Below, in pieces: positions 7,113 to 58,416 of a stretch of 64,000 nt of DNA. The stretch lies in NCBI GenBank assembly GCA_029959295.1, contig JASCOH010000001.1:434001-498000 (forward strand), given 5' to 3'. Every line of letters begins with the position of its first letter. Position 1 is the first letter of the stretch. A program made the position numbers and the translations under genes. The DNA comes from Flavobacteriaceae bacterium PS02334. Its GTDB lineage: Bacteria; Bacteroidota; Bacteroidia; Flavobacteriales; Flavobacteriaceae. The notes beneath the pieces are model-generated. The model was not told where the DNA came from and did no database searches. It saw only the letters and a program-made list of their open reading frames with translations.

Positions 7113-7724
7113 ATGCTAAAGAATTATTTTATATTTTTCTTTTTTCTGCTTCTCCCCAAGGCTGGAGTTAGTTCTGCACAACAAATTGATTCTCTTTTTG
7201 TCAAAAAAACCAATCTTATTTATATTGCTCCTGAATCTAAAACCAACATTTTAGAGAAAGCATTTTACTCAGAAAATCGTATTTCAGAAACTTCTCGAAC
7301 AATGTATGTAGTTGATACCGAAATCACTATACTTGAAGGTACAAAAACAAACGGTTCAATCATTTATATAAAAAAAGAAACGAACCAAGACATTGCAGAA
7401 GCAGCACAACAGCATAAGAAAACGCAAAAAATAGCTATAAAAGGCAAGCCTGATTATGCAGAAGCGAAAATAATAGCTTATCCGTTTTCAAAAAAAGATC
7501 ATAAACAGACTGCTTCGCTTACTTTTATTGCAGCATCTTCTGGCCTTACGATTTCAAAAAATAACACCGCTAGAATACAGATAATTGCTCCACTAGTTGC
7601 CAATTTGAACTTTCAAATTAAAGAAGAAGAAAAACTTACCAAAAACCACGAAACTTACGGCCACACAAAAAGCCTTCAGTTTATCATTACTTACACCGCA
7701 TTTTCTCGTCCGCCTACGGTTTAA
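7113..7724 (+). CDS. Secreted protein of unknown function
   Basis: A 203-aa protein with a clear signal peptide (MLKNYFIFFFFLLLPKAGVSSAQQ, cleavage probably after SSA). The mature part has beta-strand-like stretches and a Lys/Glu-rich middle. I recognise no domain. It precedes the NTAIG-repeat gene on the same strand with a 120-nt gap that shows no clear terminator, so the two may belong to one transcription unit. Function is unknown. A surface or biofilm role is only a guess from the neighbour. Confidence 0.6.
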   Translation: MLKNYFIFFFFLLLPKAGVSSAQQIDSLFVKKTNLIYIAPESKTNILEKAFYSENRISETSRTMYVVDTEITILEGTKTNGSIIYIKKETNQDIAEAAQQHKKTQKIAIKGKPDYAEAKIIAYPFSKKDHKQTASLTFIAASSGLTISKNNTARIQIIAPLVANLNFQIKEEEKLTKNHETYGHTKSLQFIITYTAFSRPPTV

Positions 7725-35722: not shown

Positions 35723-35729
35723 TAAAAAG

Positions 35730-47756: not shown

Positions 47757-47787
47757 AACCACGAATCTGAACGATTCGTGGTTTTTT
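47757..47787. terminator. Bidirectional terminator between acyl-CoA synthetase and slipin genes
   Basis: AACCACGAATC/GATTCGTGGTT with a 5-nt loop is followed by TTTT on the plus side. It ends at the slipin stop codon. Confidence 0.8.
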
Positions 47788-48883
47788 ATTTAACGAAGAT
47801 TTCCTTTAATTGACCGATGATATTGCCTCCGCCAGAAATAGTGATTTCACCAATCTTATCTGCGATTTTTTCGACATATTCCATCTCTTTCAATTTCCAA
47901 AGCATCTCGTTTTCTTCCATCAATTTTGCCGTATTTAGCAAGCTTCTTGTCGACGCCGTTTCTTCTCGTCTCATGATGCTGTTGGCTTGCGCTTTTTTCT
48001 CGGCAACCAAAACTTGGTTCATGATTTCTTTCATATCGCCTGGTAAAATGACATCTCTGATACCTGCGTCAGAAACGGCTAAACCCAAATCAGTGATTTT
48101 TGATTCTACATTTTCCAAAATTTCTTTAGCAATCGAATCTTTTTTAGTTAGCAATTCATCTAAAGTCAAGCCACCGATAAACGCTCTCAAAGCCAATTGC
48201 ATCATAACGTATAACTGCTTTTCAAAATCTTTATTATCCACCAAAGCCTTGAAAACATCAGTTACCTGGTATCTTACAAAGAAATTAACTCTCAAGCCTG
48301 CTTTGTCTTTTGTCAATAATTCTTGGCCAGAAATCTCCATTTGCTGTTGTCTGATATCTGTTGCTTTTACTTCTACAGAAATAGAATTTTGCCAAAAGTA
48401 GTACGTTCCGGCACTTACTTCTTTTACAAAAGAACCATCTATAAACAATAAGCCTGTTTCAAAGTTCATGACTTGCCATTTTCTGACATAGGCGCGCAAC
48501 TTGGCATTATCAAGCAAAGCTGTTGGAATTTCTTCTGTAATTTCAGCCTTTGACAAATCAACTTTAATAAAATCATAGTTGAAATATCCTTTCCAGAAAG
48601 CATACCTGCCTGTCATCAAAACATCTTTAAAAATACCATTTACGACATACAATGCAATTTCATTATCTGCAACTTCAACTACTTCTAGCAAAGATGCTAA
48701 TTCTTCATTTTGCAATAAAATATTCAATTCTATTGGCGCAACGAAAGATTGATTCTTTTCATAAATTTTCACTTCTTTGTTACCAAAAATCCAGAAATTA
48801 CCTTCCTGTAAAACTTTAATCAATTTTCTGTTTTCAAATACCAAACCCACTTGGTAGGCATTAATTTTTAAATTTCTAATCAT
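47786..48883 (-). CDS. Slipin (SPFH/band-7) protein of the RNA-repair type
   Basis: A 365-aa stomatin-like protein without the usual N-terminal membrane hairpin. Two related N-terminal units, INAYQVGLVFENRKLIKVLQEGNFWIFG and MNFETGLLFIDGSFVKEVSAGTYYFWQ, precede the band-7 core (ISGQELLTKDKAGLRVNFFVRYQVTDVFKALVD...LGLAVSDAGIRDVILPGDMKEIMNQVLVAEKKAQA) and a C-terminal coiled region. Slipins of this build occur with RtcB in bacterial RNA-repair operons (family knowledge). It is downstream of a structured RNA whose promoter carries the same inverted repeat as rtcB. The 48884-49166 leader shows no other feature I recognise. Confidence 0.85.
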   Translation of the reverse strand: MIRNLKINAYQVGLVFENRKLIKVLQEGNFWIFGNKEVKIYEKNQSFVAPIELNILLQNEELASLLEVVEVADNEIALYVVNGIFKDVLMTGRYAFWKGYFNYDFIKVDLSKAEITEEIPTALLDNAKLRAYVRKWQVMNFETGLLFIDGSFVKEVSAGTYYFWQNSISVEVKATDIRQQQMEISGQELLTKDKAGLRVNFFVRYQVTDVFKALVDNKDFEKQLYVMMQLALRAFIGGLTLDELLTKKDSIAKEILENVESKITDLGLAVSDAGIRDVILPGDMKEIMNQVLVAEKKAQANSIMRREETASTRSLLNTAKLMEENEMLWKLKEMEYVEKIADKIGEITISGGGNIIGQLKEIFVK

Positions 48884-49166
48884 CTTTATTTTGTTTTAAT
48901 TTGTTATTTTAATAATAAGAAAATGAATTTTCGAAATCCTCTTTCAAAAACGGGAGCTTAAATTTATTTCAGCAAGCAGCAATTGTTTTACGGTTATTTT
49001 CAAAACTATTTCTAGAAAAATCTAAAATCATTTTGTCAAACCGAAAAGAAAGACTGATGGCTTAAAAACGATTTTAAACACACAGGTTTTGTCACGAGCA
49101 TAAAATTCTTTTGGAGAACTTTATTGATTAAGACAAATCCATTTTCTTTTTTGGGCATCATTTTTT

Positions 49167-49438
49167 AAAGAGTGATGCGACTCTTTCAGGCAGATTTTGA
49201 GTCTGCAAAAACTACATCCAAAGTGTAGCCCTATTGTTCAAACCGGACTGATCCGCCGAAACGGAGTGGGATTCGAACCCACGCAAATAGAGTGCGATGA
49301 TTTTTTGGAAAACCACCAAAACCTTCAAATCAAGTTGCATAGAAAAACATGATACATTTCGGCAAAGTCTTCCACAATGGTGCTATTCAGAAACACGCAA
49401 CAGGACTTGTTTGATATTTTCAATGAACTTATTTATTT
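49167..49438 (-). ncRNA. Structured tRNA-like leader RNA upstream of slipin (YrlA-like candidate)
   Basis: Read on the minus strand from the promoter at 49445-49484. It contains a canonical T-arm (49266-49282; GTGGG-TTCGAAT-CCCAC), then acceptor-like strands TCCGTTT and CGGCGGA (six pairs, two of them G-U), a weak D-arm-like segment (49236-49248) and a closing helix ATAGGG/CTCTAT (49229-49234 with 49287-49292). The tRNA body is therefore entered through its anticodon stem, as in the tRNA-mimic module of bacterial Y RNAs. Two 5-bp/7-nt hairpins like anticodon arms follow (49212-49228, 49190-49206), then a 7-bp hairpin (49167-49186). Boundaries are estimates. Confidence 0.5.
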
Positions 49439-49444
49439 TCTGAA

Positions 49445-49451
49445 CAAAGAT
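49445..49451 (-). promoter_or_regulatory. -7-like box of the structured-RNA/slipin promoter
   Basis: ATCTTTG on the minus strand (AATCTTTG against TAnnTTTG) lies exactly 8 nt from the inverted repeat. The same box and spacing are found before rtcB. Confidence 0.55.
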
Positions 49452-49459
49452 TTTAAAAC

Positions 49460-49484
49460 CACTGCGCAATTATTCTGCGCAGTG
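49460..49484. promoter_or_regulatory. Inverted-repeat operator, copy 1 (shared with rtcB)
   Basis: A perfect 9-bp inverted repeat CACTGCGCA / TGCGCAGTG with spacer ATTATTC. It is 22 of 25 identical to copy 2 (57336-57360), in the same orientation and at the same distance from a -7-like box. It is probably the site of the WYL regulator. Confidence 0.7.
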
Positions 49485-49493
49485 AATTTAAAT

Positions 49494-49814
49494 TTATAAA
49501 AGTCCCATTCTCTTTTGATGTTCACGATCTCTTACATCAATGGCTCCAAAAGGGCTTCCCTTGAAATAACCGATGTTTACAAAACCATTTTCTTCAGTAA
49601 TCAGGGATTCTTTCTTAGTAATCGCGCCAGTATATTTAGAACCATAATTTCCCGTTAATTTCTTTGTTGCCGGATCTATATCGCCCCATTCTGGAGTCTT
49701 TCCGTTATAAATCGGCTCCACGAAATAGATAATCCCCGTCAATCTTGACTTCATTAAAAATCTTCCAGTTTCATCTGTATTGGTTAAAAATCTTTTTAAA
49801 ATGTCTGGTCTCAT
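49494..49814 (-). CDS. Hypothetical protein in the RNA-repair island
   Basis: A 106-aa protein (MRPDILKRFLTNTDETGRFL...) with several Gly/Tyr-rich beta stretches (TGIIYFVEPIYNG, GNYGSKYTGAITKKESLI) and a basic C-terminus ending RDREHQKRMGLL. No signal peptide, membrane helix or known domain is seen. It lies between the tRNA-His-like sequence and operator copy 1 on the same strand as slipin. An A-rich leader precedes the ATG. Its place suggests a part in RNA repair or sensing, but this is only positional inference. Confidence 0.6.
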   Translation of the reverse strand: MRPDILKRFLTNTDETGRFLMKSRLTGIIYFVEPIYNGKTPEWGDIDPATKKLTGNYGSKYTGAITKKESLITEENGFVNIGYFKGSPFGAIDVRDREHQKRMGLL

Positions 49815-49861
49815 AATTTTTTTCTTTTTTAATTAAACTTCATTCTGTCTGGAAAGCAGTC

Positions 49862-49896
49862 CCGAAGCTTCGGGTAAACTGCAAATTTATCCAGTT
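49862..49896 (-). other. Hairpins after the tRNA-His-like element
   Basis: Minus-strand AAACTG/CAGTTT, then the perfect palindrome CCCGAAGCTTCGGG flanked by GCAGT/ACTGC, lie between the tRNA-His-like sequence and the next start codon. These could act as a processing or attenuation structure. Confidence 0.45.
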
Positions 49897-49897
49897 T

Positions 49898-49970
49898 GGG
49901 TGTTTTCGGGAATCGAACCCTGTTCTTCGGATTCACATTCCGATATTTTACCAAATAAACTAAAAACACC
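49898..49970 (-). tRNA. Divergent tRNA-His(GTG)-like sequence
   Basis: On the minus strand, 73 nt fit a linear cloverleaf. The acceptor is GGTGTTT/AAACACC, the D-stem GTTT/AAAT with GG in its loop, the anticodon stem TCGGA/TCCGA with loop ATGTGAA (anticodon GTG), and the T-loop TTCGATT. The T-stem has only three good pairs followed by two mismatches, and the first G can pair C73 as in histidine tRNAs. It differs strongly from the normal tRNA-His at 35.7 kb. A pseudo-tRNA, decoy or specialised tRNA-like RNA is as likely as a working tRNA. Confidence 0.5.
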
Positions 49971-49976
49971 ATTCGA

Positions 49977-50032
49977 GCTCATTGGGCAATTTATTCAAGA
50001 GACAGTCGAAAAGATTGCCATTCCCAATGAGC
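49977..50032 (-). other. Long hairpin before the tRNA-His-like element
   Basis: GCTCATTGGG and CCCAATGAGC form a perfect 10-bp stem enclosing 36 nt, which can fold further (CAAT/ATTG). It ends 6 nt before the tRNA-like 5' end on the minus strand and may belong to the same RNA. Confidence 0.5.
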
Positions 50033-50071
50033 CAGTTCATTCTAGAGAACATTTTTTATTCATTTATAAGC

Positions 50072-50100
50072 ATAAAAAAAGCACCTCGTTAAAGGTGCTT
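50072..50100 (-). terminator. Terminator after the 33-aa ORF
   Basis: The stem AAGCACCT/AGGTGCTT, read on the minus strand, is followed by seven T. Confidence 0.8.
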
Positions 50101-50122
50101 CATGACATTTGATAAGATATAA

Positions 50123-50224
50123 TTATCCTATTTGCCTGAATTTATGCACCTGCATTATCTTAAATCCGAAATCAAATCTCGGGTTTGTTAATTGTGTTTT
50201 ATGGGATTTTATTTGTAAAGCCAT
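50123..50224 (-). CDS. Possible 33-aa peptide
   Basis: A short ORF (MALQIKSHKTQLTNPRFDFG...) with a perfect -7-type box TATCTTTG (50306-50313, minus strand) about 80 nt upstream and a good terminator after it. A longer in-frame version from 50320 is less likely. The peptide is basic. No family is recognised. It could also be a non-coding RNA between promoter and terminator. Confidence 0.35.
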   Translation of the reverse strand: MALQIKSHKTQLTNPRFDFGFKIMQVHKFRQIG

Positions 50225-50562
50225 TGCTTTTTTATTTTTATATTTTGAAATAATGTGTTGTCGTAATTCGTAATTACTAATTCGCAATTCTAAAATTTTC
50301 TTCGGCAAAGATAATGTCAAAAAAAAGTAACTTCCAAATATTTTTTGAAATTAAATTACTGATAATCAGATATTTAATTTTAAAATTTAAACACAGAAAT
50401 TCCTGTCCACTAATTCTAGCAGAGGTCTAAATTGTATCAAATGACTGTTTCTCATTAGATTACTTTTCAAAATTATATTTCGCTATTTTTAGTAATCATT
50501 AAACATTTTGACCATTTATTTTTTAAATTATTTTTCATTTTCATCCTTTGGAACCGCTATAA

Positions 50563-50593
50563 ACAAAAAAAGCGTCCCGATTATGGACGCTTT
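50563..50593 (-). terminator. Terminator after the 41-aa Cys-rich ORF
   Basis: The stem AAAGCGTCC/GGACGCTTT, read on the minus strand, is followed by TTTTG. Confidence 0.7.
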
Positions 50594-50617
50594 GTTGTAT
50601 TTATTTTGATTTTATAA

Positions 50618-50743
50618 CTATAGATTATACTTGAAATCATTACAATACACATCACATCCCTTGCATTCCGCAGGATATTTTCTAGCAGAACGGTCAGAAG
50701 TTTGTCTAAAAGACAGGTTGTTATGTATGCAAGTAAGTTTCAT
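50618..50743 (-). CDS. 41-aa Cys-containing small protein
   Basis: A small ORF with Cys5, Cys27, Cys30 and Cys34 (AECKGCDVYC) that could bind a metal, plus the basic stretch RQTSDRSARKYP. A perfect -7 box TACATTTG (50752-50759, minus strand) lies just upstream and a terminator lies downstream, so a transcript is well supported. No family is recognised. Confidence 0.5.
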   Translation of the reverse strand: MKLTCIHNNLSFRQTSDRSARKYPAECKGCDVYCNDFKYNL

Positions 50744-50908
50744 TTCGAAGGCAAATGTACTATTCTTTTTTATAAGAACATCATTATTTTTAACAATTGA
50801 ATACTTTTACAAAAGTCTTTTGAAATCAACTTTGTGTTTTATTTAAGAGTAATTAGCCGTAATTTTAAAGCTCATAACAAAGCATTTTTTGAACAAAATC
50901 AATCCCTA

Positions 50909-52666
50909 ATGAGCGCATCGACAAAATATTTATCAATACTTTTTTGGATACTTTTGCTAAATTCCGCCGGAGTTTCTGCGCAGCTTTTATCAACTACTTC
51001 AGAAACTAAAGAAGAAGTAAAATTTCCGGATGACTCGCTAGGAAGAAGAACGCCGAGAGGTTCGGTCAGCGGATTTTTAAAAGCAGTGTCGGAGCAGAAT
51101 TACATCCGCGCAAGCCAATATTTGTATCTGAAAAGATCCTTCAGGAAAGTAAGGGAAAGAGAACGCATTGTCAAAGTGATGCAGAATCTCTTGGATCAAA
51201 GTGGCAATATTATCCCGACATCCTTAATCAACAATAAGGAAACCGGCCAGACAGACGACGATTTAGAACCAGAATTAGACCTGGTCGGAACCGTAAAAAT
51301 AAATGGCGAGGATACTGATTTATATTTAGAAAACACTGAAAAAGCAGGCAGTCCGCCTCTGTGGGTATTCTCTTCAGAAACGGTTGACGCCATTGCTTCG
51401 GTTAAAATTGACGAGAATCTCTTGGTAAATAAAGTGCTTCCAAAAGCACTGCAAGATCGGCTTTTGGCGGGCGTCCCGATTGGGCAGTGGCTGGTAATTA
51501 TTATACTTATTGCCGCTTCCTATTTTCTATCTTGGGGAATTATTGCGCTGCTTACTTTTTTGGTTACAAAACTTTGGAGAAAAGCCAGAACAGAACCAAC
51601 ACAGGGAATTATTGAAGCGCTGTCATTGCCGATCCAGCTTTATATCGCGCTGTGGTTCTTTGTAGATTTTTCGCAACGCGTGGGAATTTCGATTATCATC
51701 CGCCAGCGTTTCAGCTATCTGACCGTGACCGTAGGAATCGTTGCCTTCTTGATGCTGCTGTGGCGGATTACCGATTTCGTAAGCGAATTCAGCAAAAACA
51801 GAATGACAGTCCGCGGGCGTGTTTCTACCATTTCCGTGATTTTATTTTTAAGAAGGACTTTTAAAGTAGCAATATTTGTCTTTGGAGGGATTGCCATTCT
51901 AGGCGCCATCGGAATTGACGTCACAACCGGACTCGCCGCACTAGGAATTGGAGGTATCGCCCTAGCCTTGGGAGCACAAAAAACTGTCGAAAATTTCGTA
52001 GGAAGCGTAACCCTAATCATTGACCAGCCCATTCGCGTAGGCGATTTCTGCAGAATAAACGATGTCAAAGGAAATGTCGAACAAATCGGAATGCGTTCTA
52101 CAAAAATAAGAACCGGAGAACGAACTGTAGTCACGATTCCAAATGGTTTGCTATCAGCCACAAACATTGAAAATTATGCTTTTCGTGACCGATTTCTTTT
52201 CAATCCGATATTAGATTTGCGTTGTGAAACTACGCCTGACCAGATCCGCTTTCTTTTAGTAGAAATCAAGTCTGTTTTAATCTCGCATCCGATGGTCAAT
52301 TCTGAAGATGCGCGCGTGCGATTCATCGGTTTTGGCACATCGTCGCTTCGCATGGAAATCAATTGCTATATTTTAGTCAGCACGCTCGATACTTCGCTGG
52401 AAGTCAAGGAAGATCTGCTATTGCGAATCATGGACATTGTTGCTGAAAGCGGTTCTGGATTTGCCTTCCCTTCGCAGACGCTTTATTTTGCACAAGATGA
52501 AGGCGTTTCTGAAGAAAAATCAAGAACAGTTGCTGAAAAAGTAAAAACTTGGAAAGAAAAGGAAGAGCTTCAAATCCCTCGCTTCCATGCTGATAAGATT
52601 ACAGAAATTGAAGATTCAATTGTGTATCCGCCAGAAGGTGCGGCTATTAATAGAAAAACGGAATAA
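50909..52666 (+). CDS. MscS-family mechanosensitive ion channel protein
   Basis: The ATG at 50909 (MSASTKYLSILFWILLLNSAGVSAQ) gives a signal peptide and is preferred over the upstream TTG. The product has 585 aa. A periplasmic domain (about 30-190) precedes four or five membrane helices. The pore helix and beta domain are typical: TTGLAALGIGGIALALGAQKTVENFVGSVTLIIDQPIRVGDFCRI, then VEQIGMRSTKIRTGERTVVTIPNGLL. Such channels release solutes during osmotic downshock. It is the only plus-strand gene inside the RNA-repair region. Confidence 0.92.
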   Translation: MSASTKYLSILFWILLLNSAGVSAQLLSTTSETKEEVKFPDDSLGRRTPRGSVSGFLKAVSEQNYIRASQYLYLKRSFRKVRERERIVKVMQNLLDQSGNIIPTSLINNKETGQTDDDLEPELDLVGTVKINGEDTDLYLENTEKAGSPPLWVFSSETVDAIASVKIDENLLVNKVLPKALQDRLLAGVPIGQWLVIIILIAASYFLSWGIIALLTFLVTKLWRKARTEPTQGIIEALSLPIQLYIALWFFVDFSQRVGISIIIRQRFSYLTVTVGIVAFLMLLWRITDFVSEFSKNRMTVRGRVSTISVILFLRRTFKVAIFVFGGIAILGAIGIDVTTGLAALGIGGIALALGAQKTVENFVGSVTLIIDQPIRVGDFCRINDVKGNVEQIGMRSTKIRTGERTVVTIPNGLLSATNIENYAFRDRFLFNPILDLRCETTPDQIRFLLVEIKSVLISHPMVNSEDARVRFIGFGTSSLRMEINCYILVSTLDTSLEVKEDLLLRIMDIVAESGSGFAFPSQTLYFAQDEGVSEEKSRTVAEKVKTWKEKEELQIPRFHADKITEIEDSIVYPPEGAAINRKTE

Positions 52667-52694
52667 AAAAACAGCCTTGATTGGCTGTTTTTTT
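52665..52694 (+). terminator. Terminator after the MscS-like gene
   Basis: The stem AAAACAGCC/GGCTGTTTT is followed by a T run. Confidence 0.82.
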
Positions 52695-52858
52695 GGGTAT
52701 AAAAGTTCATGGTATACATTCTATTTTTGTATTCAATTTACAAAATAACTTTTCTTTTAGCAGGTAATACAAGCCTTTGATGTCGGTGTAAGACGTGGGC
52801 GTGTTTAAGCTAAAGGATTTGCTTCCGGAGATGATTTGAGATTTTAGGTTTTGGATGG

Positions 52859-54733
52859 TCATTTATTTTTTGTGATAAAATCGTAAATCTCAATTGTCAA
52901 ATTTTCAATCTCTTTATTTTTAGACAAAATATCCCAAGAGAAATTTTTATTAAACACTAATTCACTCAATTCTCTTTTATTGATTATAGTCCCGAATGAA
53001 TCAGATTTTACTTCATAAGTAGATTGATTAAGAATATATATTCCCGAAATTTTACCAATTTTATTTCTTAATTCTTCTAGAAATTCTCCGACATACTTTT
53101 TTTCAAAATCAATCGAATTAACTTCTGATAGTGCCTGATTTATTTTTTGCATAATTTCATCTTTATTAGATTTAATCAATGTTTTATTGCAAAAAACGGG
53201 TAATATTTCTTTCCATATATCATTTATTAATAGATTTTCAACTTCTCGTAACTTCCATAAAATTTTTGGAATAAAATTTTCCGTTTGAGCTTCTTCAAAG
53301 GCTTTCAAGCGTTTACCTTTCTTCGTGCTTAATTTTGAATCATCTGAATCTGCTAATAAAAATATTCTATTACTTATTGCTAAAGCCTGTATATCCTTTA
53401 TTACAAGTTCCTCTTCTTCTTTTTCAAGTTCATTCTCGAAAATATAATGATCGATGTTAGAACCCGCATATTCAAAAAAAGCAAAATCTATATCCTCTTT
53501 CGGATAAAATACTTTTTTTGACTCGCAATATGATTTTAGGAATGCTTTAATATAGTTTCTATCTGAAATTCCTTCAACCCAAATGCTGCAATTAGCCATA
53601 AAAACAGATGAATTATTTACACCTAAATCTTTCAGTAGCTTATTATCCCCACGATAAACATTTTTAATTACAAATTGTTTATCATTCAAATTATTATTTT
53701 TCGGAGAAAAAGAGTAAATAGATACATAATCTTTTTCGATAATTAAGTCTAAAAAATGATTTGAATGAGTTGAAATTACGTAAACCAATTTTTTTTCTCT
53801 TAAATCTTTGTTAGATGAAATTTGTTCTAAAAACAATCTTTGCATGCCAGGATGTAAATTAAGTTCTGGCTCATCAATAAATATGAGTGAATTCGGTTTT
53901 GCCATAAAAATTTTATACATTAAAATAATTATTGCTTGTATACCATCTCCTAATTGAAATAAATTTCTAGTTTTCTTTTCTCCTTCAATATGAACACTAA
54001 TTATTTCTAGATGATTGTTACCTTTTAAGCTTTCATCCTTGTTGAATTCAGCTACTATGTCTATCTGTTTTCCACCAAAGAAATTCTTACTTATAAATTT
54101 TTCAAATTTTTCAAAAGATTCCCTAATTTCTCTTTTTGAATTTCTTGTGTTAAGAATATCCTTATATAAATGTATTCCAGTAAATACTTCAACATCAATC
54201 TTATTTAAATCGTAGTATTTATTCAATGTTTCTAAATAAATATCATTTTCTATTTTTTTATAACCCCTAATACCATCATGATTGAATAAAGAATGAGCAG
54301 TTCTTAATGTAGGTATGTAATAAATTGAATTATATTCTAAATATTTAATTAATCTTGCATACTTATCTATTTCAAATTTCTCTAAAGAATTATTTCCATA
54401 GTAACGATTTAATATTTGTACATTTTTTTCATGTATTGCAGTAATTCCAGAATCTTTTTTTAGAATCTCTAATTTCATATTATTCTGATATGTTCTAGAA
54501 TTTATTCTATTAACTGCCTCGTTATAATTATGATAGTCGAGATTATTAATTGTATTAAATTTTTTATTAGACATAAGATATCTCATAAATCTGCTTTTAC
54601 CACTATTATTAGCTCCTACAATAATATTTATAATATTAAATGAGGGAATATATTTTAAAGATTCTGTTTCGTTATACAAAAAATAATCTTGAAATATACC
54701 TGCATCTTCAAAAATTAATTCGTAAGTATTCAT
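52859..54733 (-). CDS. OLD-family ATPase/nuclease (ABC ATPase plus Toprim)
   Basis: A 624-aa protein. The P-loop GANNSGKS is at residues 40-47, the signature-like LGDGIQ at 261-266, Walker B SLIFIDEPELNLHPG at about 282-296 and the His loop at STHSNH. The C-terminal Toprim part has IWVEGISDRNY (Glu387) and LLADSDD (Asp462/Asp464). OLD proteins are DNA nucleases, and several act in phage defence (for example with GajB or PARIS partners). No second defence gene is adjacent. Composition is more AT-rich than its neighbours, which hints at transfer. Confidence 0.87.
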   Translation of the reverse strand: MNTYELIFEDAGIFQDYFLYNETESLKYIPSFNIINIIVGANNSGKSRFMRYLMSNKKFNTINNLDYHNYNEAVNRINSRTYQNNMKLEILKKDSGITAIHEKNVQILNRYYGNNSLEKFEIDKYARLIKYLEYNSIYYIPTLRTAHSLFNHDGIRGYKKIENDIYLETLNKYYDLNKIDVEVFTGIHLYKDILNTRNSKREIRESFEKFEKFISKNFFGGKQIDIVAEFNKDESLKGNNHLEIISVHIEGEKKTRNLFQLGDGIQAIIILMYKIFMAKPNSLIFIDEPELNLHPGMQRLFLEQISSNKDLREKKLVYVISTHSNHFLDLIIEKDYVSIYSFSPKNNNLNDKQFVIKNVYRGDNKLLKDLGVNNSSVFMANCSIWVEGISDRNYIKAFLKSYCESKKVFYPKEDIDFAFFEYAGSNIDHYIFENELEKEEEELVIKDIQALAISNRIFLLADSDDSKLSTKKGKRLKAFEEAQTENFIPKILWKLREVENLLINDIWKEILPVFCNKTLIKSNKDEIMQKINQALSEVNSIDFEKKYVGEFLEELRNKIGKISGIYILNQSTYEVKSDSFGTIINKRELSELVFNKNFSWDILSKNKEIENLTIEIYDFITKNK

Positions 54734-54776
54734 ATCTATATCTTATTTTACCCAATTAATAAAACCCCCATCCAAT

Positions 54777-55478
54777 TCATCTCCCATCTTTCAACACACC
54801 AGCATGCCCCTCATTAAACTTCACCGTCTCCACCAAATAATCCACTAGCAAATTTTCCCTTTTGTGCAAATATTTTTCATTCTGACCAGCTTTGATTTCC
54901 ATCAATTCCAAAACCTTTTCCTGCACGTTTAAAGGCGCAATCGGCAATAATTCGGCGAAAGCCACGGGCGGAAAACTGTTGTTTTCTATAATCCATTTTC
55001 CGGCCAAAGCCGTTCGCAACGCGTAGAAATAATTTTTCAGCTTTACTTCTTCGGCTTGGCAGGCCTCCATAAAATTCTTGGTCGTTCCCAGATAATGGTG
55101 CAGACAGGCAATAGGCGAAAAACAATCTTGTGCCAAACTTCGCATTTGGGTTACAAACGCTTCATTTTCAAAATACACCACTGGCGAATACAGCCATTCC
55201 AGCAAAGGTGCGTTTGATTTGGCCAATAACCTTACGGTTTTCCGCAAATCCCAACCAGAGCCGTCTAAATCGTCTTCGGTCATGAACTCAATCACATCCG
55301 TTTTCTCCCAAAGCGATAAGTAATACTGTAAATCGTGCTTGTATATAAACCGAATGTCATAGTCACTGTCTGGCGAAGCAAATCCCCAAGCACGGCTTCC
55401 TGATTCTACTGCAAATACTATTTCAACTTGTTTCTCTTTTTCTATTTGCTTGAGCTTTGCTATTATTTTTTCTTTCAT
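54777..55478 (-). CDS. YcgL-like (COG3541) nucleotidyltransferase
   Basis: A 233-aa protein with a DNA-polymerase-beta-type nucleotidyltransferase start: SGSRAWGFASPDSDYDIRFIY, with the GSR motif at 27-29 and the metal-binding Asp39/Asp41. The rest is helical (SPIACLHHYLGTTKNFMEACQAEEVKLKNYFYALRTALAGKWIIENN). This family is commonly found with RtcB. A role in modifying RNA ends, for example before ligation, is plausible but unproven. It lies downstream of rtcB on the same strand, after the 42-bp repeats, 7 nt after the repeat-encoded ORF. Confidence 0.82.
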   Translation of the reverse strand: MKEKIIAKLKQIEKEKQVEIVFAVESGSRAWGFASPDSDYDIRFIYKHDLQYYLSLWEKTDVIEFMTEDDLDGSGWDLRKTVRLLAKSNAPLLEWLYSPVVYFENEAFVTQMRSLAQDCFSPIACLHHYLGTTKNFMEACQAEEVKLKNYFYALRTALAGKWIIENNSFPPVAFAELLPIAPLNVQEKVLELMEIKAGQNEKYLHKRENLLVDYLVETVKFNEGHAGVLKDGR

Positions 55479-55485
55479 AAGGTTT

Positions 55486-55707
55486 TTAAGTTATTTTCTT
55501 GACTGATAGAGTTTGGCTTTGTGGCAATTGAATTAGGTTTAATACAAATCTAATTAGCAGTAAGCAGAATCTAATTCGGTTTAATACCAATCTAATTAGT
55601 AGTAAGAAGAATCTAATTTGGTTTAATACCAATCTAATTAGAAGTAAGCAGAATCTAACTTGGTTTAATACCAATCTAATTAGCAGTAAGAAAAATCTAA
55701 TTTGCAT
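55486..55707 (-). CDS. Repeat-encoded hydrophobic 73-aa ORF
   Basis: An ORF made almost wholly of 14-residue units like IRFFLLLIRLVLNQ. It starts at an ATG about 16 nt after a perfect -7 box (TACATTTG) and stops 7 nt before the nucleotidyltransferase start. The placement would allow translational coupling, but the sequence is fully explained by a 42-bp tandem repeat, so it may be non-coding. No family match. Confidence 0.3.
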   Translation of the reverse strand: MQIRFFLLLIRLVLNQVRFCLLLIRLVLNQIRFFLLLIRLVLNRIRFCLLLIRFVLNLIQLPQSQTLSVKKIT

Positions 55708-55709
55708 TT
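55525..55709. repeat. 42-bp tandem repeat, about 4.4 copies
   Basis: Units start at 55525, 55567, 55609 and 55651, with a partial fifth at 55693. The consensus centre is GGTTTAATACCAATC with AATCTAATT before and CTAATTAG after. Each unit can form a small hairpin (TTGGT/ACCAA). The period is a multiple of three and holds one frame open. The first unit is the most diverged. Confidence 0.9.
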
Positions 55710-55722
55710 AACACTTACTTCT

Positions 55723-55730
55723 CAAATGTA
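55723..55730 (-). promoter_or_regulatory. -7 box upstream of the repeat ORF and nucleotidyltransferase
   Basis: TACATTTG on the minus strand matches TAnnTTTG exactly. It lies just beyond the rtcB terminator. A -33 element is less clear. Confidence 0.5.
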
Positions 55731-55744
55731 TATAAAAAACAACC

Positions 55745-55768
55745 ACAAAAAAGCAGGTAGTTTTACCT
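55745..55768 (-). terminator. Terminator after the rtcB 3' tRNA-like element
   Basis: The stem AGGTA/TACCT, read on the minus strand, is followed by GCTTTTTTG. The stem is short but the T run is clear. Confidence 0.6.
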
Positions 55769-55877
55769 ATTCTTGTGATTGCTAAATATCCAGCTGTTTT
55801 CCCAACTTAAACTACTACGGCTTATGGGTAGCGCAGACGGATTTGAACCGCCATCTTCTGGAATCAATTATTTTATT
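55769..55877 (-). ncRNA. Permuted tRNA-like element in the rtcB 3' region (YrlA-like candidate)
   Basis: On the minus strand, starting right after the rtcB stop, the order is as follows. Stem strand TCCAG (55858-55862) comes first, then 5 linker nt and the T-arm GGCGG-TTCAAAT-CCGTC (55836-55852). TGCGCTACCCA follows, ending as a tRNA 3' end with CCA. Next are GTAG, the T8-A9 pair, the D-arm GTTT-AAGTTGGGA-AAAC (55796-55812) and stem strand CTGGA (55789-55793). CTGGA pairs TCCAG exactly. CTAC/GTAG closes the acceptor with a 9-nt loop. So the halves are permuted and the molecule exits through the anticodon stem, as in the YrlA tRNA-mimic module. Confidence 0.6.
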
Positions 55878-57299
55878 TTAATCCTCTCGGCTTCCATCAT
55901 CCGCCATTCTTACCATTTTAGGCGTAAATTTTGCCACAACATCTACCAAGTCTTCCTGCGAAGCCATGACCCTATTGATATCTTTATAAGCCATTGGCGC
56001 TTCGTCTAAACCAGCGCCAATCAGCGTCACGCCGTGGTCTTTCAAGACAGCCTGCATCTCGTTTTTGGTAATTGTTTTGATGGCTTGCGTTCGGCTCATC
56101 TGCCTTCCGGCACCATGCGAAGCGGAGTTGATGGCGTTTTCCTCGCCTTTTCCTCGCACTAGAAATCCGGGTGCGGTCATGCTTCCCGGAATGATTCCCA
56201 TCACGCCTTTTCCTGCCGGAGTTGCCCCTTTTCTATGCACGATGACTTCTTCTCCGTTCCAAACTTCCTTCCAAGCAAAATTATGGTGGTTTTCTACCTT
56301 TGCCAAAACGGTTGCTCCTAAAGCTTTTTCCATTTTAGCATGGATAATTTCGTGGCAGGCTGAAGCATAATCTCCCGCAAGATTCATCGCAATCCAATAT
56401 TCTTGGCCTAAGGAAGAATTCATATCTAAATATGCCAGATTCTTGGCAACATCAGGCAATTTGCAGACATCTTTGGCCAGCTTAGTGTAATGTCCGGCAA
56501 CGGTCGCTCCGAAACCTCTCGAACCGGAATGTGTCAGCAGCGCTACATATTTCCCTTTTGGAATATTCAAAACGGTATCGTCTTTCGCAAATTCCAAGAT
56601 TCCGAATTCCACGAAGTGATTCCCTCCGCCAGAAGAACCCAATTGCGACCAGGCCTTGTCTTTCAAATTCTTGACAAAAGAATTGGTTTCAAAATCTGGG
56701 TTTTCCAAAACCGCATGGTCCGATTTATACTGTCCGTGGAAACCGTGGCCGGCGCCAAATTTAGTATGCGCCACCAATTCTCTCTTGAACTTCGCTTCAT
56801 TGGCATAATAAAAATCTTCAGGAATATCATAAACCGACAAAGCCATTCGACAACCGATATCAACACCCACGCCATAAGGAATAATTGCATTATTTGTTGC
56901 CAGAACGCCTCCAATCGGCAATCCATACCCTTGATGCGCGTCAGGCATCAAAGCTCCGGCAACGGTTACAGGAAGCTGCATTGCGACCTTCATCTGCTTG
57001 ATGGCGCCTTCCTCAATATGATCTAAACCATAGGCAGAAAAAGCATCCGGATTTTGGTTCAAGGCAATAAAATCTTCTGGCTTTTCATTCGCTTTTTCAA
57101 TTAAGGCAATGGCAAGCTTGCTGAAAACTTTATCGTCGATATAACTTTCTGGCGCAGCTAAAATAGCTGTATAGTGTTCCATCATCTCTTCTTTTGTAAA
57201 ACCATTTCTTCCTCGGTTAATTTTCAAGGCGATCCCTAAAACAGTTCCTTCTGCATATCCTAATGCTAATAAATCGTTTCCGTTGATTGGTGTTTTCAT
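55878..57299 (-). CDS. rtcB: RtcB RNA-splicing ligase
   Basis: The ATG at 57299 (MKTPINGNDLLALG) is chosen over a TTG 24 nt earlier, which lies too near the promoter. The 473-aa product joins RNA 2',3'-cyclic phosphate or 3'-phosphate ends to 5'-OH using GTP and Mn. Metal and guanylate residues are present: Asp147 and Cys150 in GVDIGCRM, His228 in GGGNHFVE, His257 in LTHSGSRG, His338/His339 in NHHN, and the guanylated His395 in ASHGAGR. No RtcA or archease is nearby. Operator copy 2 precedes it and a tRNA-like element follows. Confidence 0.95.
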   Translation of the reverse strand: MKTPINGNDLLALGYAEGTVLGIALKINRGRNGFTKEEMMEHYTAILAAPESYIDDKVFSKLAIALIEKANEKPEDFIALNQNPDAFSAYGLDHIEEGAIKQMKVAMQLPVTVAGALMPDAHQGYGLPIGGVLATNNAIIPYGVGVDIGCRMALSVYDIPEDFYYANEAKFKRELVAHTKFGAGHGFHGQYKSDHAVLENPDFETNSFVKNLKDKAWSQLGSSGGGNHFVEFGILEFAKDDTVLNIPKGKYVALLTHSGSRGFGATVAGHYTKLAKDVCKLPDVAKNLAYLDMNSSLGQEYWIAMNLAGDYASACHEIIHAKMEKALGATVLAKVENHHNFAWKEVWNGEEVIVHRKGATPAGKGVMGIIPGSMTAPGFLVRGKGEENAINSASHGAGRQMSRTQAIKTITKNEMQAVLKDHGVTLIGAGLDEAPMAYKDINRVMASQEDLVDVVAKFTPKMVRMADDGSRED

Positions 57300-57320
57300 G
57301 TTTTCTATTTTTTGATAGTA

Positions 57321-57327
57321 CAAAGAT
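57321..57327 (-). promoter_or_regulatory. -7-like box of the rtcB promoter
   Basis: ATCTTTG on the minus strand (CATCTTTG against TAnnTTTG) lies 8 nt from operator copy 2. No good -33 TTTG is present at standard spacing, which fits a promoter that needs an activator. Confidence 0.55.
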
Positions 57328-57335
57328 GATTATGC

Positions 57336-57360
57336 TACTGCGCAATTATTTTGCGCAGTA
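57336..57360. promoter_or_regulatory. Inverted-repeat operator, copy 2 (rtcB / WYL intergenic)
   Basis: A perfect 9-bp inverted repeat TACTGCGCA / TGCGCAGTA with spacer ATTATTT. It sits between divergent rtcB and the WYL regulator gene. It is nearly identical to copy 1. Confidence 0.75.
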
Positions 57361-57405
57361 AAAAAGAATAATTACATTTAACAAAAATCTTTCAATTTTA
57401 CAGAA

Positions 57406-58416
57406 ATGTCTCAGAATAAAAACGCCTTAATCCGATACAAAACTATAGACAAATGCCTTCAAAATCAATACAGAACTTGGACATTAGAAGATTTGAGGAA
57501 TGCCTGTTCAGAAGCTTTATTTGAATATGAAGGAAAAGAAAACTCCGTAAGCAAAAGAACTACGCAATTAGATATTCAGTTGATGCGAAGTGAGAAATTA
57601 GGCTATAATGCGCCGATTGTGGTGTATGACAGAAAGTTTTACAAATATGAAGACGAAGACTATTCGATAACCGATATTCCGTTGACAGAAACGGACATTA
57701 ATGTTTTGACAGAAACCGTTTCGATGCTGAAACAATTTAAGGATTTCTCTTTATTCAGCGATGTTTCGGATATTTTGCAAAGACTGGAAGATAAGATCTA
57801 TGCCGAAAAATCGCATTCGCAACCCGTTATTTATTTGGATAAAAATGACAATTTAAAAGGACTGCATTTTTTGGATGTTTTGTACCAAGCCATCATTAAG
57901 AAGATGGTGGTCAGACTGACCTATAAATCATTCAAGTCAAGAGAAGAGCAGACATTTAACTTCCATCCTTTTATATTGAAGGAATTCAACAACAGATGGT
58001 TTTTGGTTGGAAAGAAAAAAGCATCCGCACCGGTCAGCAATTTAGCTTTGGACAGAATTGTGGCTATCGATTTTGATTTTACTCTTCCTTATGTTGAAGA
58101 AAATTTTGATGCTGAACAATTTTATAAAGATGTCATCGGAGTTACCGTAAATCAAGGAAACCGAACACAAAAAATCCAACTTTGGATTGATAGAGATAAT
58201 GCGCCATATATAATCACAAAGCCTTTTCATCATTCCCAAAAAATTGTAAACCAGGAAGAAAACGGAAGCATAATAATTAGCTTGGACTTAAAAATCAACA
58301 ATGAATTTGAAAGATTAGTTCTGGGTTTTGGCAATTGTATAAAAGTTTTATCTCCTGAAAATTTGCAAAAGCGGATGATTGAAAAGTTTCGTTTGGCATT
58401 AGAAAATTACGTTTAA
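57406..58416 (+). CDS. WYL-domain transcriptional regulator
   Basis: A 336-aa protein. An N-terminal DNA-binding part (KCLQNQYRTWTLEDLRNACSEALFEYEGKENSVSKRTTQLDIQLMRSEKLG, winged-helix-like) is followed by a WYL domain (about 160-230; VVRLTYKSFKSREEQTFNFHPFILKEFNNRWFLVGKKK) and a C-terminal WCX-type domain. WYL proteins sense nucleic acids or nucleotides. Divergence from rtcB across operator copy 2 makes it the likely controller of rtcB and, through copy 1, of the slipin unit. This replaces the RtcR activator of enterobacteria. Confidence 0.88.
   Translation: MSQNKNALIRYKTIDKCLQNQYRTWTLEDLRNACSEALFEYEGKENSVSKRTTQLDIQLMRSEKLGYNAPIVVYDRKFYKYEDEDYSITDIPLTETDINVLTETVSMLKQFKDFSLFSDVSDILQRLEDKIYAEKSHSQPVIYLDKNDNLKGLHFLDVLYQAIIKKMVVRLTYKSFKSREEQTFNFHPFILKEFNNRWFLVGKKKASAPVSNLALDRIVAIDFDFTLPYVEENFDAEQFYKDVIGVTVNQGNRTQKIQLWIDRDNAPYIITKPFHHSQKIVNQEENGSIIISLDLKINNEFERLVLGFGNCIKVLSPENLQKRMIEKFRLALENYV

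Follow-up and report, generated by a model that had tools for sequence, protein, structure and literature searches.

We examined a window of 64,000 nucleotides (nt) from Flavobacteriaceae bacterium PS02334 (contig JASCOH010000001.1, positions 434,001 to 498,000) in which genes for a slipin, RtcB, an RlaP nucleotidyltransferase and a WYL regulator, three tRNA-related elements and two palindromic operators all lie within about 10 kb. From this locus and its relatives, flavobacteria apparently carry emergency spare tRNA genes beside RNA-repair genes, switched on by a "census" leader that senses tRNA shortage. Domain scores were read against curated cut-offs. The slipin (SPFH/Band 7; 47786..48883, minus strand) scored 85.6 bits with Band_7, the RlaP nucleotidyltransferase (PF10127; 54777..55478, minus strand) 254.1 bits against a cut-off of 23, and the RtcB RNA ligase (55878..57299 or 57323, minus strand) 279.6 bits against 27. 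We preferred the ATG at 57299 as the start of rtcB because the longer TTG start would overlap the promoter. The WYL-WCX regulator, with both WYL and WCX domains, is divergent from rtcB (57406..58416, plus strand). A sequence-only reading of the window had called this cluster correctly; for its "YcgL-like" nucleotidyltransferase, RlaP is the better name. The look of an RNA-repair island that it described is supported, RlaP and WYL genes do join RtcB, and its three tRNA-related elements on the minus strand are real. What it overlooked is that a tRNA-His is the last intact member of an array that stands, at most related loci, behind a leader-peptide attenuator.

This tRNA-His(gtg) (49898..49970, minus strand) is the only intact tRNA of the array in the window and was found by ARAGORN and by Rfam (tRNA, 52 bits). 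It is a second copy, the usual housekeeping tRNA-His of the window being at 35729, and it carries A37 where the housekeeping copy carries G37. Rfam returned nothing beyond these two at gathering score. On either side lie a tRNA-Asp remnant without a T-arm (49974..50033, minus strand), whose best blastn match was the tRNA-Asp of relatives, and a tRNA-Pro remnant (49847..49894, minus strand), missed by blastn and recognized by eye against the tRNA-Pro of relatives, that is split by a CCCGAAGCTTCGGG palindrome. Palindromes of this kind were seen within array tRNA remnants at about 49859-49872 in the window (CCCGAAGCTTCGGG) and about 7440-7460 in locus L011 (CCCGATAGCTATCGGG), and are perhaps a mobile repeat. 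The window copy of the system is eroded, with fuller versions in its relatives.

Upstream of the array we placed a predicted promoter (TTG ... TATCTTTG; 50306..50337, minus strand), picked by eye for its -7 motif on the Bacteroidota promoter consensus. A leader open reading frame (ORF) encoding MALQIKSHKTQLTNPRFDFGFKIMQVHKFRQIG* follows (50123..50224, minus strand) and contains a GGTGC antiterminator segment (50146..50150, minus strand). Next comes an intrinsic terminator, AGCACC...GGTGCT-T7 (50074..50100, minus strand), with a folding energy of -10.6 kcal/mol, compared to -17.6 kcal/mol for the competing antiterminator segment. Judged from its sequence, this combination of leader ORF, terminator and pairing segment is typical of ribosome-mediated attenuation.

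The same layout was found in other Flavobacterium loci. We took the best 80 of 173 slipin relatives from one scan, together with as much as 10 kb of flanking sequence for each; many of these stretches stop at contig ends or short of RtcB, RlaP or WYL, and RtcB or RlaP was found in 30 of the 80 and a close WYL gene in 15. The terminator (AGCACC..GGTGCT-T) was present at 63 loci (62 fetched and the window) after three short loci (L083, L084 and L087) had been removed, along with one hit on the minus strand of L078 and two surplus hits in L009. At 62 of the 63, a leader ORF of 29-46 codons, its start codon picked by rule, ended just ahead of the terminator. Of the 62 leaders, 61 had a GGTGY in the 80 nt that precede the terminator, compared to 11% in shuffles, and in 60 of these 61 it had an identical phase to the stop codon; an in-frame NNG-GTG close to the leader end was seen in 60 of 62. 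Folding of nine loci gave -14 to -22 kcal/mol for the antiterminator segment alone and -9.5 to -11.4 kcal/mol for the terminator alone. When the whole leader end was folded, eight of the nine adopted the terminator and L066 kept the antiterminator. In another genus both sides of the pairing had changed, a terminator arm AGCATCTCC standing by eye with a leader GGAGAT, and in another family the terminator arm AGCGCC paired with a leader AGGTGCT. Ten loci were examined for this: three in the other family had intact leaders, in L226 the leader frame was shifted, two loci of the other genus had leaders, and L219, L220, L231 and L232 gave none.

tRNA genes lay upstream of the slipin gene at 58 of the 80 loci by ARAGORN, odd calls inside the slipin RNA (described below) being excluded. 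At locus L063 the array reads Asn-Arg-Arg-Lys-Asp-His-[Pro]-Tyr-Gln-Leu-Phe, with Pro detected by similarity alone. We then counted isotypes at the 62 loci (61 fetched and the window) with an attenuator upstream of slipin, using ARAGORN and blastn relatives and excluding isotype-less calls. The commoner isotypes were Asp (49), Pro (42), Arg (33), Leu (30), Tyr (29), Asn (25), His (20) and Phe (16), and the rarer ones Lys (7), Met-like (6), Ser (5), Gln (4), Ile (3) and Glu (3); no Ala, Gly, Val, Thr, Cys or Trp tRNA was found in the arrays of these 62 loci by either method. Cys, Trp, Gly or Ser-tga tRNAs do occur in arrays of two further genera of this family and of one other family. The first tRNA lies about 16 nt past the T run of the terminator in 36 of 55 tRNA-bearing loci. 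Additional Trp, Trp, Ala(agc) and Ser tRNA calls were made about 1 kb upstream of the attenuator in L026 (5235-5759) and L033 (5290-5791).

We compared the composition of 57 distinct leaders with a background of 346,925 codons, taken at the same loci from ORFs 200 amino acids long or longer. His (3.0 times), Gln (2.2), Arg (2.0), Tyr (1.6) and Pro (1.4) were enriched, Phe and Asn stood at 1.2, and Ser, Leu and Asp at about 1.0. Of the ten residues N, R, K, D, H, P, Y, Q, L and F, leaders contained 9.5, compared to 7.5 expected, while for nine other residues they contained 6.07, compared to 6.11 expected. With one leader for each of 15 families the ten-residue count was 9.2 against 7.66 +/- 0.29, a value reached in 0 of 2,000 draws. 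Codon choice differed from background as well, with CTN making up 55% of Leu codons (31% in background), AGG 36% of Arg codons (7%) and CCG 57% of Pro codons (19%); the Leu CTN codons should be read by tRNA-Leu(UAG). Across 41 loci with at least four tRNAs, the count of a residue rose with presence of its cognate tRNA for 10 of 12 amino acids, some of the groups holding 3-5 loci. The summary statistic for this match over 37 distinct leaders was reached by 0 of 10,000 permutations. Nearly every amino acid for which the arrays supply a tRNA is sampled by the leader, whose content follows the tRNAs of its own array.

In the three genomes searched, array tRNAs mostly fell below other tRNAs in Rfam tRNA score, some reaching about 70 bits. 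Discriminator base 73 was the same as in housekeeping tRNAs in 168 of 175 array tRNAs, His G-1:C73 was present in 16 of 16, and the GTTCRA T-loop motif and the D-loop GG each in 176 of 179, counts that are skewed to canonical forms because ARAGORN calls alone were used. Base 37 was different. Among distinct sequences, housekeeping A was replaced by U in Asp (17/17) and Glu (3/3) and by G in Phe (13/13), and housekeeping G was replaced by A in Pro (17/17), Gln (3/3), Arg-acg (14/15), Arg-tcg (1/1), His (11/16) and Leu-tag (10/18). Outside the genus, where array copies alone were read, every called copy had U37 in Asp and A37 in Pro, Gln and Arg-acg, and Glu had U37 except for one G37. A change at base 37 that spares the identity elements would fit escape from anticodon nucleases, as has been argued for phage tRNAs (PMC10264068).

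The two operators carry the same palindrome, CTGCGCARAATAATTGCGCAG, and lie at the rtcB promoter (57338..57358, minus strand) and at the promoter of the slipin RNA (49462..49482, minus strand). Each matches the 19-mer core exactly, and the core has just these two exact sites in the 4.6-Mb genome, confirming the earlier claim of two shared operators; a reversed-pattern control gave 0. Four more genome sites matched with one or two mismatches. We rejected a genome-wide regulon for this operator on the two exact sites, both local, and on the sole one-mismatch site, which by eye lies inside a dehydrogenase gene; the remaining three have two mismatches. A degenerate 21-mer written from these sites and allowed up to two mismatches within 150 nt upstream was found ahead of the slipin RNA in 60 of 80 relatives and ahead of rtcB in 14 of 15 tested, with 0 in shuffles of the RNA-upstream regions. 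By eye, a TTTG-type -7 element usually follows the operator. Because WYL and operator co-occur, we infer that WYL binds the operator, and WYL probably controls the repair arm.

The slipin leader RNA is about 270 nt long (49145..49414, minus strand) and by eye comprises P1, hairpins, a loop-capped tRNA-like module, an anticodon-like arm and a possible pseudoknot. The region proposed earlier as an RNA, 49167-49438, overlaps it: model R1, which represents its 5' part and was built from 27 sequences including the window, matches 49242-49414 at 164 bits. An anchored search found the slipin RNA in all 80 sequences examined (79 loci and the window), L023 being excluded for a contig edge. A 62-pair structure laid on 30 slipin RNAs had 95.4% of cells paired, compared to 39-45% when slid, and 36 of the 62 pairs covaried, with changes on both sides; the structure came from the same alignment used for these tests, which favours it. 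The capped module has a T-arm, a D-arm and an acceptor-like stem whose ends are joined by a loop and not left open; the anticodon-like arm follows it. Relatives have two such modules and the window has one, the second missing. A free search for the pseudoknot was confounded by T-arms; the anchored segments look complementary by eye. No Rfam family reached threshold on this RNA. L066 and L075 were read as a longer type with the anticodon-like arm between both capped modules, and L027, L069 and L070 were grouped with them. ARAGORN made an odd tRNA call inside the slipin RNA of L027, L066, L070 and L075.

R1 matched 29 of 295 genomes across the class, and 14 of the 20 loci fetched (including the window) adjoin slipin or WYL; the other six showed neither, and R1 hits scoring less than about 40 bits probably often represent tRNA genes. 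At the level of the order, 63 genomes out of 296 had a match, which in 30 reached at least 45 bits. Slipin was present in all 16 regions taken outside the genus from genomes with good scores, eight of which had arrays of at least five tRNAs. Three genomes of two other families have the compact order WYL, RNA, slipin, RtcB, and in two genomes tRNAs are located between slipin and RtcB. The third tRNA-related element, a capped one that follows rtcB (55785..55855, minus strand), was picked by eye and with blastn relatives. Its region, 55769-55877, has by eye a T-arm and a loop-capped acceptor-like stem, and it is the weakest of the three; blastn found relatives at 4 of 80 loci (L071, L078, L012 and L011; E <= 6e-6), and a similar element was seen by eye in L077.

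We consider it likely that these parts form a Bacteroidota defence against tRNA loss with two arms, a tRNA-loss sensor that releases spare tRNAs and a WYL-controlled repair arm. The proposal is built on anatomy, conservation, covariation and composition statistics. Stalling, induction, nuclease resistance, WYL binding and the role of the RNA are what we infer from them. In the first arm, a promoter would be followed by the leader ORF, the terminator and the spare tRNA array, often with RNA-ligase or p106-type genes. With all tRNAs present, the ribosome would complete the leader and cover GGTGC, and the terminator would halt transcription. Were one or more tRNAs cut or missing, the ribosome would stall upstream, GGTGC could pair with the GCACC of the terminator, and the array would be transcribed. 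The spare tRNAs, with aminoacylation features kept and position 37 altered in many isotypes, would suffer less anticodon-nuclease cutting. In the second arm, WYL would control rtcB and the structured RNA ahead of slipin through the shared operator, RtcB would repair, and RlaP would restore lost nucleotides. The slipin RNA with its capped tRNA-like modules is probably a scaffold, or bait for tRNA-binding nucleases or repair enzymes. A more specific version, to which we give an even chance, is a "census" attenuator whose leader polls most amino acids and senses tRNA destruction, whose stalling frees a bank of position-37-altered tRNAs together with ligases, and which is accompanied by a capped mimic serving as bait on a slipin membrane scaffold.

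Several observations weigh against this two-armed defence. The leader frame is broken in L012, and in L226 the shifted stop lets the ORF extend into the terminator region. No tRNA was detected behind a kept leader at 7 of 62 loci, and the window itself retains a single intact array tRNA. Leaders are 2.2-fold up in Cys, though no Cys tRNA was found in these arrays; they under-use Lys (0.71 of background) and Glu (0.35), and their Tyr and Gln counts show no rise when the cognate tRNA is present. The ten-residue set was picked once the arrays had been seen, and the permutation test of the match of leader to array is uncorrected for relatedness. The housekeeping loops came from G000 and G120 (both nearly complete) and parts of G121 and G122, with 1-7 distinct sequences per isotype. 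Nine isotypes were switched at base 37, and Asn, Lys, Tyr, Ser-gct and Arg-tct remain A; four of these five unchanged isotypes are known targets of anticodon nucleases. Outside the genus, all 5 Phe copies had A37, and 4 of the 6 His copies called had G37. By eye, the array promoter has no operator, and the two arms may therefore answer different signals.

Classical leader-peptide attenuators sense charging, and the leader gives a weak match to the Rfam Phe_leader (23.4 bits compared to a gathering score of 55, E 0.4). Both points would suit amino-acid starvation, with a leader that senses uncharged and not broken tRNA and an array that boosts tRNA supply in starvation or slow translation. We nevertheless think this rather unlikely: tRNAs, RNA ligases and RNA-repair neighbours lie downstream, with no biosynthesis gene among the named families, more tRNA would not cure a lack of amino acids, and the changes at position 37 would be left unexplained. 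It is also improbable that the arrays, like those of phages, consist of decoy tRNAs or of relics left by mobile elements, with no use in translation and an incidental leader ORF. Against this stand the retained discriminator bases (168/175), His G-1:C73 (16/16) and T-loop and D-loop motifs, and the match in content of leader and array. Arrays do decay, in the window and at the 7 of 62 loci with none left, and tRNA clusters whose anticodon loops are altered have been described in phages (PMC10264068). Short matches to the L063 array occurred in 1,761 phage records, none of which spans 80% of the query.

The sequence-only reading had placed the island with Ro/Y-RNA type repair operons, WYL replacing RtcR and the nucleotidyltransferase replacing RtcA. 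Part of this holds: RtcB, RlaP, WYL and tRNA-like RNA do occur together, one operator is shared by two promoters, and a genome search gave no RtcA or RtcR match. Membership of the Ro/Y-RNA type is not supported. Ro had rightly been reported absent from the window, a whole-genome TROVE search gave no match either, and the YrlA model reached 18.2 bits where its gathering score is 69. With the array and attenuator also left unaccounted for, we regard this explanation as very unlikely.

As for the two-armed defence we favour, its attenuator has familiar counterparts. The trp, his and phe attenuators combine a leader ORF with mutually exclusive antiterminator and terminator structures; each of them is concerned with one amino acid, whereas here about ten or more are sampled and tRNAs lie downstream. 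Among open-licence papers, judged by title and the beginning of the abstract, none was found that treats attenuation of a tRNA array through a leader peptide, or these Flavobacterium arrays. Burroughs and Aravind (2016) reportedly described SPFH/Band-7 RNA-repair modules with a "novel tRNA-like molecule", which resemble this island in slipin, RtcB, RlaP and tRNA-like RNA. The slipin RNA is probably that molecule.

The closest functional precedent is the Anabaena trn operon, whose end the Bacteroidota system would reach by attenuation. That tRNA array stays silent in ordinary culture and comes on under translational stress, and deletion of trcR raises rtcB and a slipin-family gene along with the silent array (PMC10272220). 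The two systems share a tRNA array, rtcB and a slipin-family gene, with stress activation known for Anabaena; they differ in that the ribbon-helix-helix (RHH) repressor TrcR acts there and a leader-peptide attenuator precedes the array here, where a WYL gene and a shared operator at rtcB and the slipin RNA are present and the array and repair genes are often linked (PMC10272220). Two papers predict that RlaP beside RNA ligases restores nucleotides lost from cut RNA before ligation; RlaP adjoins RtcB there as here, and those passages, on phages and on PrfH-RtcB, are without a tRNA array or attenuator (PMC7824862, PMC6514570). Salmonella rsr-yrlBA-rtcBA likewise has RtcB beside an RNA with a tRNA-like domain and is induced by tRNA fragments; our locus differs from it in lacking Ro, RtcA and RtcR matches and in its RNA and regulator (PMC7790460). 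Phage tRNAs with anticodon-loop changes are argued to evade nucleases. They too are extra tRNAs with anticodon loops unlike those of the host, whereas ours lie on bacterial chromosomes, concentrate their changes at position 37 and have an attenuator in front (PMC10264068).

The system bears on the question of how bacteria sense and withstand the cutting of their tRNAs by toxins and defence nucleases. Few sensors of tRNA cleavage are known besides enterobacterial RtcR and cyanobacterial TrcR, and the leader would offer one that is testable by reporter fusion. A natural tRNA set altered at one loop position would predict nuclease specificity. The locus also adds a large structured RNA linked to slipins and offers an explanation for the tRNA arrays found here in Flavobacteriales.

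The array-distal gene in the window encodes p106, a conserved 106-amino-acid protein (49494..49814, minus strand). No family was found for it in Pfam, NCBIfam, PADLOC or PHROGs. Matches to PDB sequences came no better than E 0.024 and 0.92, and a fold search with its AlphaFold model (pLDDT, predicted local distance difference test, 74.6) gave nothing at E <= 0.001. We clustered the neighbours of the 80 loci and the window, naming each family by Pfam from one representative. Clusters included an RNase_T exonuclease (41), an RLIG1-type RNA ligase (18), p106 (18), an Rnl2 RNA ligase (6) and a weak RimK-like ATP-grasp protein, below cut-off (25). The array was followed by an RNA-ligase gene at 20 of 62 loci, 17 of the RLIG1 type and 3 of the Rnl2 type. 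Between the two halves of the island sit genes for an MscS channel and for an OLD/AriA-like ATPase. The latter, OLD/AriA/PtuA-like and possibly a defence gene, lies directly downstream of RlaP at 52859-54733, and L060 has a 56% identical relative after its RlaP gene. A 42-bp unit is present in about four copies at 55531-55704, between the post-rtcB element and RlaP. A second RtcB gene occurs in the same genome (L002, C11:608101), with PrfH-like and tetratricopeptide-repeat (TPR)-like proteins next to it that were named by eye from their translations.

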